Below, piece by piece: positions 13,790 to 19,105 of a stretch of 40,496 bases of DNA. Both the position numbers and the translations under genes were made by a program. Numbering within the stretch: position 1 is the first letter of the stretch; the number at the start of each line of letters is the position of its first letter. The stretch is from Cyanobacteria bacterium M_DeepCast_100m_m1_067 (GTDB taxonomy: Bacteria > Cyanobacteriota > Cyanobacteriia > PCC-6307 > Cyanobiaceae). Under the pieces are notes generated by a model. It ran no database searches, was not told where the DNA came from, and was given only the letters and a program-made list of their open reading frames with translations. Location of the stretch: contig VGQC01000004.1 in NCBI GenBank assembly GCA_016882385.1, positions 1 through 40,496 of the forward strand, written 5' to 3'.

Positions 13790-14029
13790 TCAGCCCAGGG
13801 CGCGGATCGTGCAGGCTGCAGCGCGGTTGATCAAGGTGAGGGGACGCCCTTCCGCCTGGCTGAGGGCGAGATAGGCAACGTCCTGCCAGTGCAGGGTTCC
13901 CTCCAGTTCACCGACACCCATCACCTGAACGGCCACGGGAGTTTTGTGGCGGATCAGATCCTGCAGATGGCGAATGCTCGGCTGGGAGGTATCGAGAGCC
14001 GTCGAGCGCTTCTCGAAAAAGCTCTGCAT
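13790..14029 (-). CDS. hfq: Cyanobacterial Hfq-like RNA chaperone (79 aa)
   Basis: The product begins with a variable tail, then QPSIRHLQDLIRHKTPVAVQ and GELEGTLHWQDVAYLAL. This matches the divergent Sm-fold Hfq of cyanobacteria: a PSIRxLQxLI helix, then strands with LxGxLxWQD. In cyanobacteria Hfq acts mainly with the type IV pilus base protein PilB1 and affects motility, rather than acting as a typical sRNA matchmaker; applying that here is inference. The usual Sm2 motif is weakly conserved. The start ATG 14029 lies only about 5 nt from the start of divergent dapF, so both promoters must overlap coding sequence. Confidence 0.85.
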   Translation of the reverse strand: MQSFFEKRSTALDTSQPSIRHLQDLIRHKTPVAVQVMGVGELEGTLHWQDVAYLALSQAEGRPLTLINRAAACTIRALG

Positions 14030-14034
14030 AGGAT

Positions 14035-15207
14035 TTGGTGGTGCCTGCCTTTGCCCCCATCGTGCTCCAGTTCAGCAAATATCAAGGTCTGGGAAACGAT
14101 TTCCTCATGCTCGATGCCCGGGGGGCGGGCAGCAGCGACAGCGATCTGGGCCTCACTCCTGAGCGGATTCAACGCCTGTGCGACCGCCGCTTTGGCGTGG
14201 GCGGTGACGGGGTCATCCTGGCCCTGCCACCCCGGGAGGGTGGAGAACTGCGCATGCGGATCTTCAATGCCGATGGCAGCGAACCTGAGATGTGCGGCAA
14301 TGGCATCCGCTGCCTGGCTCGCTTCCTGGCCGACAGCGACGGGGATGCCCCGGGCCGGCAGTGGCAGATTGAAACCCTGGCCGGTCGCATCGTTCCCGAG
14401 CTCTGCGCCGACGGCACCATCCGCGTTGACATGGGCGCCCCCTTCCTCGAGCCCGCTGCCATCCCCACCACCCTGCCGCTTGGGGAGGCCGGGGTCGCCC
14501 AGGGGAGCCTGGAGGTTGGGGGTGAAACCTTCGCGGTGGGAGCGGCAGGCATGGGCAATCCCCATGTGGTGATTCCCGTGGACGATGTTGCGGCGGTCGA
14601 TCTCGAGCGTTATGGCGCCGCCTTGGAGGTGCATCCGGCCTTCCCCGCCCGCACCAACGTGCACTTCGTGCAGGCCCTCAGCCCCACCCATCTGGTGATG
14701 CGGGTGTGGGAGCGGGGTGCTGGGCCGACCCTGGCCTGTGGCACCGGTGCCTGCGCCACCTTGGTGGTGGCCCATCGGCTCGGCTTAGCGGAGCGCCGCG
14801 CCCGCCTGGATCTCCCTGGCGGACCTTTGGAGATTGCCTGGGACGCCACCAGCGATCACGTGTTCATGACCGGTCCGGCGGTGGCGGTGTTCGACGGTGT
14901 GGTGACCCCGGAGCTCTGGGGCGAGGAGCCTGCTGCCAGTGCTGCAGAGGCCACCACCGCAGCGCCCACCACCGCAGCCACCGTTCCAGCACCCACCCCA
15001 GCAGCTACCCCAGCAGACATCGACTGCGCCACAGCCTGCGTCAACGGTTGCGTTCGCCCCGAGGCCTGTCCCTCGGCGGAGGCGCGGGCTCGCGTGGCGG
15101 ACCTGCTCAGCAGCAGTTCCCTCGACGACCTTGTTGCCCTGGCCACCAACTCCCTGGAGTCGCGGACGCGAGCGCGCGTGGAGCGGGACAGCGGCTTGTT
15201 CCGTTAG
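14035..15207 (+). CDS. dapF: Diaminopimelate epimerase with Cys-containing C-terminal extension (390 aa)
   Basis: DapF interconverts LL- and meso-diaminopimelate for lysine and peptidoglycan. The two catalytic cysteines are present: EMCGNGIRC (Cys87) and ACGTGACAT (Cys235). FSKYQGLGNDFLMLD starts the fold, and GVGGDGVIL and GMGNPHVVI are also conserved. The normal enzyme ends near residue 290. About 100 extra residues follow: an Ala/Thr/Pro linker, then DCATACVNGCVRPEACPS (spacing C-x3-C-x3-C-x5-C), then a helical tail ending SGLFR. This tail resembles separate short cyanobacterial proteins that I recall only loosely. The start is a TTG/GTG/GTG cluster at 14035-14043, so the exact start is uncertain. 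Confidence 0.95.
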   Translation: MVVPAFAPIVLQFSKYQGLGNDFLMLDARGAGSSDSDLGLTPERIQRLCDRRFGVGGDGVILALPPREGGELRMRIFNADGSEPEMCGNGIRCLARFLADSDGDAPGRQWQIETLAGRIVPELCADGTIRVDMGAPFLEPAAIPTTLPLGEAGVAQGSLEVGGETFAVGAAGMGNPHVVIPVDDVAAVDLERYGAALEVHPAFPARTNVHFVQALSPTHLVMRVWERGAGPTLACGTGACATLVVAHRLGLAERRARLDLPGGPLEIAWDATSDHVFMTGPAVAVFDGVVTPELWGEEPAASAAEATTAAPTTAATVPAPTPAATPADIDCATACVNGCVRPEACPSAEARARVADLLSSSSLDDLVALATNSLESRTRARVERDSGLFR

Positions 15208-15211
15208 GCCC

Positions 15212-16435
15212 TTGGCTGCCTCCGCACCGGCTGCCTTCGCACCGCTCTATCTCGATGCCTGCGCCACCACCCCGCCGGCGCCTGAGGTACTCGAGGTTAT
15301 GGCCGCGGTGCAGGCTGAGGCCTGGGCCAACCCCTCGAGCCTGCATGGTTTTGGGCTGGCGGCCGCCGAGCAGCTGGAGCGCAGCCGTTGGCGCCTCGGC
15401 GAGCTGCTCGGCTGCGCCGCCAGTCAGCTGGTGTTCACCTCGGGGGGCACCGAATCGATCCACACCGCCCTGCTCGGGGTCGCCGGGCAGGGGTCTCCAG
15501 GACGTCTGTTGATCTCCGCGGTCGAACACCCGGCCACCCTGGCCGCAGCGGTGCAGGTGCAACGGCTCGGCTGGCAGGTGGAGATCCTGCCGGTGGACCA
15601 CCTGGGGGTGGTGGATCTCGAGGCCCTCGATCGCTTGCTGGTGCCTCCCACGCGGCTGGTGTCGTTGATCTGGGGCCAGAGCGAAGTGGGCACGATCCAG
15701 CCGATCGAAACGATCGGGGCCCGCTGCCGCGAGGCCGGCGTGTTGTTGCACGTGGATGCGGTGCAGGTGCTGGGCCACCGGCCGTTGGCCTTCGATGCCC
15801 TGCCGATCGATCTGCTCAGCCTGGCGGCCCACAAGCTGCAGGGGCCCCGGGGCGTTGGCGCCCTGTTGGTACGCCAAGGCGTGTCGCTATCCCCCTTCAT
15901 CGGCGGGGGCGGCCAGGAAGCAGGGCGGCGGGGTGGCACCGAGCCGGTGGCCCTGGTGGCGGGGCTCACCCGTGCCCTGGAGCTCTGTCAGGCTCGCCTG
16001 GGGTCCCACGGGGGGCAGGATCCCATCGCCGATCTGCGCGATGGTCTGCTGGCCCGTGTCTTGGAACTGGAGGGGGTGTGCCTCAGCGGCCCCGATCCCC
16101 GCCACGCCGCCGATCCGCCCCGTCTGCCCCACCATCTCAGCCTGTTGGTGGCCAACCCATGCGGCACGCCCCTGTCGGGCCGAGGGCTTGTGCAGGCCCT
16201 CTGGCAGCAGGGGTATGCGGTGAGCAGTGGATCGGCTTGCAGCAGTGGGCGCGCTGCCGAAGGGGGGCTGGCTCCCAGTCCGATCCTGCAGGCCATGGGC
16301 TATGCCGATGCCGAGGCCGCCAGTGGTGTGCGCCTGAGCCTGGGGCCCTGGCTCACCGCCGCCGATCTGGAGGGGGTTCCCGCGGCGCTTGAGCAAGCCC
16401 GGGTGCGGCTGCAGGCCGTACTCTCAGCACGCTGA
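15212..16435 (+). CDS. Cysteine desulfurase (NifS/IscS-like, 407 aa)
   Basis: PLP-dependent enzyme that removes sulfur from cysteine for Fe-S cluster and cofactor assembly. Motifs in order: LYLDACATTPPAPEVLEVM, WANPSSLHGFGLAA, FTSGGTESIHTALLG, SAVEHPATLAA, HVDAVQVLGHRPL, the PLP lysine in SLAAHKLQGPRGVGAL (Lys208), and the active-site loop SSGSACSSGRAAEGG (Cys343). This is a class I NifS-type layout. A TTG at 15212, four bases after the dapF stop, gives the usual start just before the first conserved strand; no ATG is available nearby. It is likely co-transcribed with dapF. Confidence 0.93.
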   Translation: MAASAPAAFAPLYLDACATTPPAPEVLEVMAAVQAEAWANPSSLHGFGLAAAEQLERSRWRLGELLGCAASQLVFTSGGTESIHTALLGVAGQGSPGRLLISAVEHPATLAAAVQVQRLGWQVEILPVDHLGVVDLEALDRLLVPPTRLVSLIWGQSEVGTIQPIETIGARCREAGVLLHVDAVQVLGHRPLAFDALPIDLLSLAAHKLQGPRGVGALLVRQGVSLSPFIGGGGQEAGRRGGTEPVALVAGLTRALELCQARLGSHGGQDPIADLRDGLLARVLELEGVCLSGPDPRHAADPPRLPHHLSLLVANPCGTPLSGRGLVQALWQQGYAVSSGSACSSGRAAEGGLAPSPILQAMGYADAEAASGVRLSLGPWLTAADLEGVPAALEQARVRLQAVLSAR

Positions 16436-16482
16436 CGCCTTGGTCAGGGAGCCCTTAGGGTCGGCCGACCCGTGCTGGCTTG

Positions 16483-17175
16483 ATGCTTCCCCCCGACCTG
16501 CGCTCCGCCGAGGCTGAAGCTCTGACGGCGATCCAGGCTGCTCTCAGCGGTGGTGCCAAGGGTCTGTGGACCGTGGAGCTGCGTTTTGAGGGCCTGCGGA
16601 TTTTGCCGTTGGCCCTGCGTTTGCAGGCGGCCCTCAGCCCGGCATTGCCCAGCCTGCGGCTGTTGTGTCCGGATGCCGGTGCCACGGCCCTGGCCCAGCG
16701 CGATGCCCCGGATTTCGCCGCCCGCATCGCCAGCCTGCGGGATCAGATGCGCCTGCAGCAGGCCGACGGCGGCAGCGAAGGTGTGCTGCTGCTGGTGGCC
16801 CCCTCCCCCGCCGACTACGAGGAGGTGGAGCAGGTGTGCGCCCTGCACCGTGGCGCGGTGGTGCTGCTCAACGGCAGCCTGGAGGATGCGGCGGTGGGCA
16901 TTGGCAGCGTCGCCCGGGAGCGCCGCAAAGGATTTTTGTCGGGATGGCAAAGCGCCTATGCCCTGATTCCCTCGGGTGATGGGGCGCTGCGCCGCGCCTG
17001 TCCTGATCCCTGGGAGCTCTACCGCTGCGATCCCGATGGCTACCGCTTTGTGGCCCACTTCGATCAGAAGCCGGATGCGGAGCAGCAGGCCCTGGCTCTG
17101 GCCGGTGAGGGCGGGCTGGGGCTCGGCGGCAACCTCAAGGTGATGGATGCCTTCATCGAGGGGCTGCGCAACTAG
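16483..17175 (+). CDS. DUF1995 family protein (230 aa)
   Basis: The protein begins MLPPDLRSAEAEALTAIQAA and contains GLWTVELRFEGLRILPLALR, LLLVAPSPADYEEVEQVCAL and AVVLLNGSLEDAAVGIGSVA. It then has a Trp/Tyr-rich segment (FLSGWQSAYALIP, PWELYRCDPDGYRFVAHFDQ). This is the DUF1995 architecture found in cyanobacteria and plastids; plant members include thylakoid-associated proteins. The biochemical function is unknown. ATG 16483 follows an in-frame TTG at 16480; the ATG is taken as start. Soluble, without a signal peptide. It lies 47 nt after the cysteine desulfurase gene on the same strand. Confidence 0.88.
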   Translation: MLPPDLRSAEAEALTAIQAALSGGAKGLWTVELRFEGLRILPLALRLQAALSPALPSLRLLCPDAGATALAQRDAPDFAARIASLRDQMRLQQADGGSEGVLLLVAPSPADYEEVEQVCALHRGAVVLLNGSLEDAAVGIGSVARERRKGFLSGWQSAYALIPSGDGALRRACPDPWELYRCDPDGYRFVAHFDQKPDAEQQALALAGEGGLGLGGNLKVMDAFIEGLRN

Positions 17176-17265
17176 GCACGCGACCCGCCCCCTGCCCTGG
17201 TGGGTCGCGGCCCTGGTGGGACCCGACGAACCTCCGTACACTTCGCCGAACCCTGGATCAGCCCG

Positions 17266-17805
17266 ATGGCCTCCGAGCGCGACCTGTCTTCAGCACGCAA
17301 CGGCCGCTCCTGGAGCCTGGTGGATCTCGGCGCCGCCGCCGCGGTGGTGCTCGCCGCCGTTGGTGTGATCTGGAGTCCCAAACTCAGCGGGGCCGTGGCC
17401 CAGGCCACCGGTGCCCTCACGCCGGTCACGGTGCTGGTGGATGTCCGCGGTGTGCCGGTGGCGGATCCCACCGCCTTGATTCAGGCGGCGCAGCGCGAAG
17501 GCAAGGTGGCCATCGTGATCCGCAACCAGCCCCATGGATCGGTGGATGTCAAGCAGGTTCTGCCCCTGCAGCGCCGGCTGACGGCTGTGCAGCCCAACGG
17601 CACGGTGGTGACGGCGGCGGATCCGAACCAGACCACCATGGGCAGCCTGGATGCCCGCTTTGTGCTGCAGGGCCAGGGCCGCAAGAGTGGCGGCGGCGTC
17701 GTCTTCGGCAACCAGAACCTCAAGGTCGGCGCCCCCGTGGAGATCGAGGGCTTGCAGTACCGCGTCGGGGGCACGGTGAGTGGCCTGCAAGCTGGAGGCC
17801 AGTGA
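17266..17805 (+). CDS. DUF4330 membrane-anchored protein (179 aa)
   Basis: An N-terminal arginine-containing segment (NGRSWSLVDLGAAAAVVLAA, then VGVIWSPKLSGAVAQATG) forms one membrane anchor. A beta-rich extracytoplasmic domain follows, with PVTVLVDVRGVPVADPTALI, VAIVIRNQPHGSVDVKQVLP and a closing FGNQNLKVGAPVEIEGLQYR. This is DUF4330, a cyanobacterial family of unknown function. Two bases after its stop begins the dacB-type gene, with a GGAGG ribosome binding site inside this gene's last codons. That suggests coupling and a possible cell-envelope role (inference). Confidence 0.88.
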   Translation: MASERDLSSARNGRSWSLVDLGAAAAVVLAAVGVIWSPKLSGAVAQATGALTPVTVLVDVRGVPVADPTALIQAAQREGKVAIVIRNQPHGSVDVKQVLPLQRRLTAVQPNGTVVTAADPNQTTMGSLDARFVLQGQGRKSGGGVVFGNQNLKVGAPVEIEGLQYRVGGTVSGLQAGGQ

Positions 17806-17806
17806 G

Positions 17807-19105
17807 ATGGGCTCCATCCGTGGTTCCCTCCAAGCGGCTGCCGGACTGATCACGCTGGCGGTGCTGCCGGCGGCAGCCCTGGCCCAGCAGGCCCCGGCGA
17901 TCACCGCCTATGCGCTGGAGCCGGCGCCGCTGGCCACCCTGCCGCCGCTGCCCCCTCCGCTGGGCCTGCCCCAGTTGCAGGCGCAGGTGAGCTGCCCGGC
18001 GCTGCAGCAGCGGCTCCTGGCCACCGTGGGCAGCCAGGCACCGGTCTGGAGCATCAGCATTGCCGATGGCCAGGGTCGTCTGCTTGCCGATCTCAACGGC
18101 ACCCGGCCCCGCATCCCGGCCTCCAACCAGAAACTGCTGAGCACGGCCTACGCCCTCGATCGGCTCGGGCCCGATTATCGCCTCAACACCCAGCTCTGGC
18201 GCCTCAGCGACGGCAGCTTCCGCCTTACCGGTGAGGGCGACCCCGACCTGGCCTTGCCCCAGCTGCAACGCTTTGCCAAGTTGGCCCTTGGAACGGGCGG
18301 CAGCAGCGGCGAGCCTCCCTCGCTGGTGCGCCTGCAGATCGCCGAAGAGCCCCGCCAGGCCTGGTGGCCGCAGGGCTGGCATCCCGACGACCGCTACTAC
18401 GCCTACGGGGCACCGATCACACGGCTGGCCATCACCAGCAATGCCATCCACGACGCGGTGATGAATCCGCCCTCCCGTCTGCAAGCCCTGCTCCAAAAAA
18501 CCGTGGGCCTGCAGGGCGGCAAGGTGCAGGTGTCTCAGGTGTCGTCGCGCGCGCCCCTGCCGGGCGATGCCGTGCTGCTGCATCAGGAAGCGTCAGCTCC
18601 GATGCACAACCTGCTGAGCCTGGCCAACACCGAGAGCCACAACTTCACCGCCGAAGTGCTGCTGCGGCAAGCCGCCGGCAGTTGGGATCTGGGTGAGGCC
18701 GCCCAGCGCCAAACCCTCTGGCTGGGTGAGCAGGGCCTGCCGATGCAGGGGGTGCGCATCGCCGATGGCAGTGGTCTTGACCGGGCCAATCGCCTCACCA
18801 GTCGCTTCCTCACGGCCCTGTTGCTGCGGATGGATCAGCACCCCTATGGCCGTGCCTACCTGGCATCCATGGCTGTTGCCGGCCAGCGGGGCACCCTGCG
18901 CAATCTCTACGTGGGGACCCCTCTGCAAGGCCAATTCTTTGGCAAAACCGGCACGATCAGCGGGGTGCGCTCGATCAGTGGTGTGCTGCTCACCAGTGCT
19001 GGCCCTCGCTACGTGAGTGCGATCAGCAATGGAGCCAGCTCCCCCAACGACACCATCGGCCGGGTGCTGCGCCAGGCGCAGAACACCCAGCTCTGCCCGC
19101 TCTAG
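17807..19105 (+). CDS. dacB: D-alanyl-D-alanine carboxypeptidase/endopeptidase, PBP4 type (432 aa)
   Basis: A signal peptide (LITLAVLPAAALAQ at about residues 14-27) directs it to the periplasm, where class C penicillin-binding proteins trim peptidoglycan side chains or cleave cross-links. The three active-site motifs are SNQK (Ser106-Lys109), SHN (Ser277-Asn279, usually SxN) and KTG (Lys380-Gly382, in FFGKTGTISG). Length agrees with cyanobacterial PBP4. ATG 17807 is supported by GGAGG at 17794-17798. The upstream gene is DUF4330. The stop TAG lies within a CTAG that also contains the stop of the opposite-strand DivIVA-like gene. Confidence 0.93.
   Translation: MGSIRGSLQAAAGLITLAVLPAAALAQQAPAITAYALEPAPLATLPPLPPPLGLPQLQAQVSCPALQQRLLATVGSQAPVWSISIADGQGRLLADLNGTRPRIPASNQKLLSTAYALDRLGPDYRLNTQLWRLSDGSFRLTGEGDPDLALPQLQRFAKLALGTGGSSGEPPSLVRLQIAEEPRQAWWPQGWHPDDRYYAYGAPITRLAITSNAIHDAVMNPPSRLQALLQKTVGLQGGKVQVSQVSSRAPLPGDAVLLHQEASAPMHNLLSLANTESHNFTAEVLLRQAAGSWDLGEAAQRQTLWLGEQGLPMQGVRIADGSGLDRANRLTSRFLTALLLRMDQHPYGRAYLASMAVAGQRGTLRNLYVGTPLQGQFFGKTGTISGVRSISGVLLTSAGPRYVSAISNGASSPNDTIGRVLRQAQNTQLCPL

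Follow-up and report, generated by a model that had tools for sequence, protein, structure and literature searches.

Sequence homology between a C-terminal extension of cyanobacterial DapF and a small stand-alone four-cysteine protein

Introduction

DapF, diaminopimelate epimerase, is an enzyme of the lysine and peptidoglycan branch, and its two catalytic cysteine motifs are CGNG and CGTG. In the window, by which we mean the whole stretch of 40,496 nucleotides analyzed here, the dapF open reading frame does not stop where the epimerase domain ends; an extension of 100 aa begins at 14905 and contains four further cysteines. A gene fusion is one of the classic hints at what a protein does, and the locus raises the question of what this extension is, how it came to be joined to DapF and what it might do there.

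Results

The fused ORF consists of a complete epimerase domain followed by a linker and a small domain (Table 1). The TIGR00652 DapF model matches at 278.5 bits against a cut-off of 114.65, covers profile positions 2-268 of 270 and reaches residue 290, in agreement with the initial annotation, which had described a complete domain followed by an extension of about 100 residues. As in DapF generally (TIGR00652, PF01678), the whole domain with both cysteine motifs is present here too, and the catalytic-type motifs CGNG and ACGTGA are both found in 57/57 aligned fusion rows, window included. The top Foldseek matches of the epimerase part were DapF structures, the best being 9mro, a cyanobacterial DAP epimerase. 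By these profile and fold matches, the window ORF is DapF plus a C-terminal extension. A DapF with a second role is likewise represented by NF038284, the NCBIfam exception model for a bifunctional DapF/glutamate racemase; membership was rejected, since the window scores 98.7 bits against a cut-off of 350.

Table 1. Features of the fused dapF gene and the genes that follow it (window coordinates)
Feature	Coordinates	Strand	Basis and remarks
dapF fused ORF	14035..15207	+	390 aa, counted from the listed, putative TTG start
Complete diaminopimelate epimerase domain, residues 12-290	14068..14904	+	TIGR00652 match
Ala/Thr/Pro-rich linker, 39 aa counted from residue 290	14902..15018	+	composition and predicted disorder
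Fused small domain, 62 residues, homologous by sequence to stand-alone cyanobacterial 4-Cys protein	15019..15204	+	profile searches
CX3CX3CX5C motif	15025..15069	+	Cys codons 15025-15027, 15037-15039, 15049-15051, 15067-15069
Two predicted helices, model residues 336-350 and 353-375	15070..15189	+	AlphaFold2 and alignment
NifS/IscS-type cysteine desulfurase	15212..16435	+	class-V aminotransferase match; TTG start assumed
DUF1995 protein	16480..17175	+	domain match; also downstream in f10 genome G334

The linker holds 13 Ala, 8 Thr and 7 Pro in its 39 aa and is predicted by AlphaFold2 to be mostly disordered (pLDDT <50 at model residues 289-316). In the model of the fused tail, a short helix (321-326) is also predicted in the cysteine part, and confidence over the tail is moderate, with block means of 60-83. 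Composition, codon positions and predicted helices thus agree with the earlier description of an Ala/Thr/Pro linker, four cysteines spaced 3-3-5 and a helical tail. Five residues of the helical stretch (S352, L353, A360, R367 and R371, model numbering) are invariant in 57/57 fusion rows. Over 697 sequence pairs, with rows L158 and L021 left out, dN/dS was 0.30 in the cysteine part, 0.345 in the helices, 0.57 in the linker, where pS is near saturation, and 0.21 in the epimerase domain; the Cys-less group provided 2 usable pairs only and says little. The tail is under purifying selection, though the constraint is weaker than on the epimerase domain. Two familiar cysteine signatures were considered for the tail and rejected. 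Bacterial 4Fe-4S ferredoxins carry CX2CX2CX3CP, a spacing of 2-2-3 that differs from the 3-3-5 seen here, and there was no Pfam ferredoxin match. Radical SAM proteins combine CX3CX2C, a spacing of 3-2, with a barrel domain; the tail has a spacing of 3-3, a domain of only 62 aa and no Pfam match.

Homologues of the tail were then sought with the tail alone. Its last 61 residues match 150/299 genomes of the window's order at E<=0.1 and 135/299 at E<=1e-3. Eight of the 15 weaker matches were checked at the DapF C-terminus: five (G115, G191, G193, G205, G216) have a diverged, Cys-less tail, and the remaining three (G036, G081, G151) are tail-free DapFs, so false matches. At the fused loci inspected the tail lies at the C-terminus of the DapF ORF, with the exception of L023, a chance match; a second match in the window's own genome (G000 C91, E 0.158) was also rejected as chance. 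A profile built from 12 fused tails (A1) matches 141/386 genomes of the phylum, fused and stand-alone forms together, and recovers stand-alone genes mostly at E values between 1e-13 and 4e-5. Outside family f1, which we take to be Cyanobiaceae, the main A1 matches lie in short ORFs of 60 to 139 aa stop-to-stop, encoding proteins of ~60-80 aa (for example L091:3956-4153:- and L082:1456-1653:-). A mixed profile (A2) also matches 141/386 genomes, the stand-alone forms scoring far better than with A1; 32 of these genomes belong to f1, 107 to class-mates outside f1 and 2 to another class, the last two matches being weak (E 0.001 and 0.007) and not trusted. With a profile of 42 stand-alone rows, partly picked by score (A3), 149/194 genomes in one order of the class gave a match and 45/194 did not, a figure for the share of class members outside f1 without the small protein that covers this one order only. 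Judged by these profile searches, the tail shares homology with a small protein that stands alone in other cyanobacteria, where it is widespread but not universal. A likeness to a short stand-alone cyanobacterial/plastid protein had been tentatively suggested in the initial annotation, and the same matches bear out its existence as a separate gene in other cyanobacteria.

Like the fused tail, the stand-alone protein has CX3CX3CX5C followed by two predicted helices. It ends mostly in a PPKWVxPED-type motif, and W[VI].P[DE] is present in 36/42 chosen rows and in 0/57 fusions; the other 6 of the 42 stand-alone rows also lack it, and its loss is no strict mark of fusion. Two and three residues after Cys3, all stand-alone rows (42/42) have Leu-Gly, whereas the fusions mostly have Arg (38/57) and Pro (53/57), and CX3CX2GCXLGX2CP is carried by 42/42 chosen stand-alone rows. 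The model of the stand-alone protein has predicted helices at 7-10, 24-36 and 39-55 and a mean pLDDT of 76, falling to about 62-64 over its initial 20 residues, a stretch that includes three of the cysteines; Foldseek returned no match for this model. Gene fusion as such is well known, and the small family is, as far as database searches go, unnamed: Pfam, NCBIfam, PHROGs and PDB sequences yielded no credible relative of the tail or of the stand-alone proteins, and weak matches such as those to MSP1_C (E 0.23) and to ribosomal S12 (E 0.7) were put down to chance. A search of plasmids and phages with one stand-alone query gave no match, and an A2 scan of viral contigs gave 6 pattern stretches, of which 0 were confirmed. 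One stand-alone copy (L200, at about 1402 on the minus strand, genome G695) is broken by a stop and is apparently decaying.

The cysteines are conserved in part. The alignment of fusions (A4) comprises 57 rows: besides the window it contains 56 of the 66 fused rows that were gathered, the other 10 being discarded as near-copies or doubles; 11 ORFs without a recognized start, including the Cys-less L133-L135 and L141, were left out. All four cysteines are present in 48/57 rows and Cys1-3 are missing in 9/57, 3 of those 9 keeping Cys4, a share that does not represent a natural frequency because weak matches were fetched on purpose. Five stand-alone genes (L195-L199) also lack Cys1-3, with Cys4 kept in L199, and retain the helices and a PPKWVIPD-like end; this loss is independent of that in the fusions. 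The expectation that the four cysteines would be conserved therefore holds for the 48 fusions and fails for 9 fusions and 5 stand-alone genes. The joint loss of Cys1-3 is compatible with a single common site, most often explained by metal binding. Cys1-3 were nevertheless dropped in 9/57 fusions with the helices kept, and the metal or Fe-S site proposed earlier is the weaker part of that interpretation. Since the helices persist without Cys1-3, their role does not appear to need the cysteine site; from the alignments, the helices look like the lasting core and the cysteine site like an optional part.

We assessed the distribution of the fusion in two sets of genomes. DapF is present in 30/30 f1 genomes and in 30/30 genomes of other families. 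Outside f1 the tail is absent in 30/30, as judged from the C-termini for 29 and from a 281-aa ORF for G383. The 30 f1 genomes are a chosen set with mostly weak or missing tail matches, and among their DapFs 17 have no recognizable tail and 13 a Cys-less one. Compared with DapF elsewhere, the window thus adds a linker and domain of about 100 aa, and the fusion is clade-specific, as had been suspected: fused tails occur in f1, and 0/30 of the non-f1 genomes checked have a DapF tail. In a quick maximum-likelihood tree built from 90 DapF domains, with long branches and many weak forks, all f1 rows cluster in a single group (support 92), which also takes in the aberrant long row L192. The f1 rows without a tail are nested within the fused group and need 2 changes (fork support 91, not starred), and for the Cys-less tails 7 changes are required, of which starred branches force at least 3; the tree's 15 Cys-less rows count one sequence twice (L080, L150). 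This tree does not resolve family f10, presumably Synechococcus elongatus-like, as the family nearest to f1. L192, the DapF of G383, is unusually diverged against the other cyanobacteria checked (E 3.5e-69, end branch 4.23), and its place in the tree is unsure. In the DapF of G005 (L148 1231-2367, minus strand) the C-terminal stretch of 89 aa bears no likeness to the tail and is possibly a decayed remnant; in L151, a close relative, this stretch is only 19 aa long.

The neighborhood of the small gene bears on the origin of the fusion. In the f10 genome G334 the order is dapF, stand-alone gene, cysteine desulfurase, DUF1995, as in the window, and in G627, another genome of the same order, dapF, the small gene and the desulfurase follow one another before the locus ends, short of any DUF1995 position. 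In both f10 genomes (2/2) the two genes are in the same frame, the dapF stop codon being followed by 12 bases and then the ATG of the small gene. This adjacency with one stop codon makes it plausible that fusion occurred by stop-codon loss, and an ancestral trio of dapF, small gene and desulfurase followed by such a loss would be the simplest history. The earlier proposal of a gene fusion thus gains a separate homologue outside f1 that is adjacent to dapF and in frame with it in f10. The next gene had also been read correctly as a cysteine desulfurase. A desulfurase-like gene adjoins dapF in 30/30 f1 genomes (the chosen set), 2/2 of f10 and 0/29 others, with a flank of ~1.5 kb, so that the desulfurase link stands for the f1 and f10 genomes checked and not beyond; in some small f1 genomes this gene is only 28-30% identical to the window's. 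At 20 stand-alone loci opened, dapF and a desulfurase each lie within ~4 kb only at the f10 one. Clustering of the neighbors found one gene, presumably mnmE, shared by 4 of these loci and no other shared by 3 or more; it was rejected as a functional clue. The neighbors of the stand-alone gene provide almost no functional clue, and the desulfurase link is clade-restricted. After the window's DUF1995 gene follow a DUF4330 protein (17200-17805, +) and an S13 D-Ala-D-Ala carboxypeptidase (17780-19105, +), and DUF1995 and DUF4330 matches are likewise downstream in G334. Between leuS and dapF lies an Hfq-related ORF (13790-14029, minus strand; PF21979, 63.5 bits); a figure legend in PMC1242208 describes, for marine cyanobacteria, a putative hfq lying in the gap between dapF and leuS. 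A link between Hfq and the tail was dropped, as the Hfq-like ORF still adjoins dapF in L148 and L151, both without a recognizable tail.

Discussion

The reading that we tentatively favor, as plausible though short of probable, is that the tail is a helical module that binds another protein, carries a metal/thiol knuckle and is held on DapF as an accessory arm. The loss of the stop codon and growth of the Ala/Thr/Pro linker would have given the arrangement seen in the window. The N-terminal four-cysteine knuckle might hold a metal ion or act as a thiol switch, steadying or tuning the helical module, and the long linker would keep this module mobile, so that the arm could bring DapF to the module's partner or let that partner influence DapF. 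The helices would be the essential part, because the cysteine site was dropped repeatedly without their loss. Several small-genome f1 lineages, presumably Prochlorococcus-like, have no arm, which suggests that it is dispensable under genome streamlining. Counting against such an arm, the module has no named or structural relative in the searches made, its stand-alone model is only moderately confident, and the tail is less constrained than the epimerase; nor does anything tie the stand-alone protein to DapF beyond f1 and f10, as only 1 of the 20 loci opened is near dapF.

That last point would be expected if two operon neighbors were simply joined by stop loss and the small protein kept a job unrelated to DapF, with DapF as its mere carrier. 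We regard this as a real possibility, and hold it and the accessory arm nearly level. The adjacent, same-frame genes of f10, the long linker predicted to be disordered, the position of the stand-alone gene away from dapF at the other loci opened, with no common neighbor but the one in 4/20, and the f1 lineages without a tail all agree with it. Repeated decay of the cysteine site in the fused state would be odd if the old job were unchanged, yet the five stand-alone genes have also lost Cys1-3; similarly, the absence of W[VI].P[DE] from every fusion suggests a change of role, yet six stand-alone rows are without it as well. An extension that is meaningless read-through without homologues, to which the silence of Pfam and NCBIfam on the tail might point, is refuted by homologues in 135/299 order-mates at E<=1e-3 and as stand-alone genes, and by the constraint seen in dN/dS.

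It is also conceivable, if unlikely, that binding Zn or an Fe-S cluster is the main purpose of the four cysteines, perhaps served by the neighboring desulfurase. That Cys1-3 are kept or lost together, and that the full motif recurs in 42/42 of the partly score-picked stand-alone rows, is consistent with such a site. The desulfurase, next to dapF in the f1 and f10 genomes checked, suggests Fe-S by position only, a position common to these two families, and is absent from that place in 29 other genomes; the fusions and stand-alone genes that retain their helices without Cys1-3 argue against a main role for the metal, and the cysteine part is of low confidence in both models. According to PMC5296763, DapF of Corynebacterium glutamicum can be inactivated by a disulfide between its two catalytic cysteines, and published redox switching of this kind makes it conceivable that thiols in the tail respond to oxidation by shielding or switching DapF. 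The window DapF has both of the catalytic-type motifs. Even so, we find this improbable: the 30 non-f1 DapFs checked do without the tail, several fusions have lost cysteines, which speaks against a general need, and our literature search found no paper tying cyanobacterial DapF to thioredoxin. Returning to the accessory arm, a bolder version, which we offer as speculation and rather doubt, is that the stand-alone protein is a metal- or redox-tuned DapF adaptor, that picocyanobacteria fixed this partnership through one lost stop, and that several lineages later shed first the sensor and in the end the entire arm.

In the literature searched, in which subscription journals are thinly covered, no title or abstract start describes the fusion of DapF with this tail, and we do not claim its absence from print. 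The fusion points from a well-known enzyme to an unnamed small family that is widespread in cyanobacteria. Living lineages show unfused neighbors (f10) and, as apparent stages of decay, Cys-less tails and no tail at all, so each step, from fusion through the loss of the cysteine site to that of the arm, is open to study, and DapF offers a direct way to test what the stand-alone protein does.
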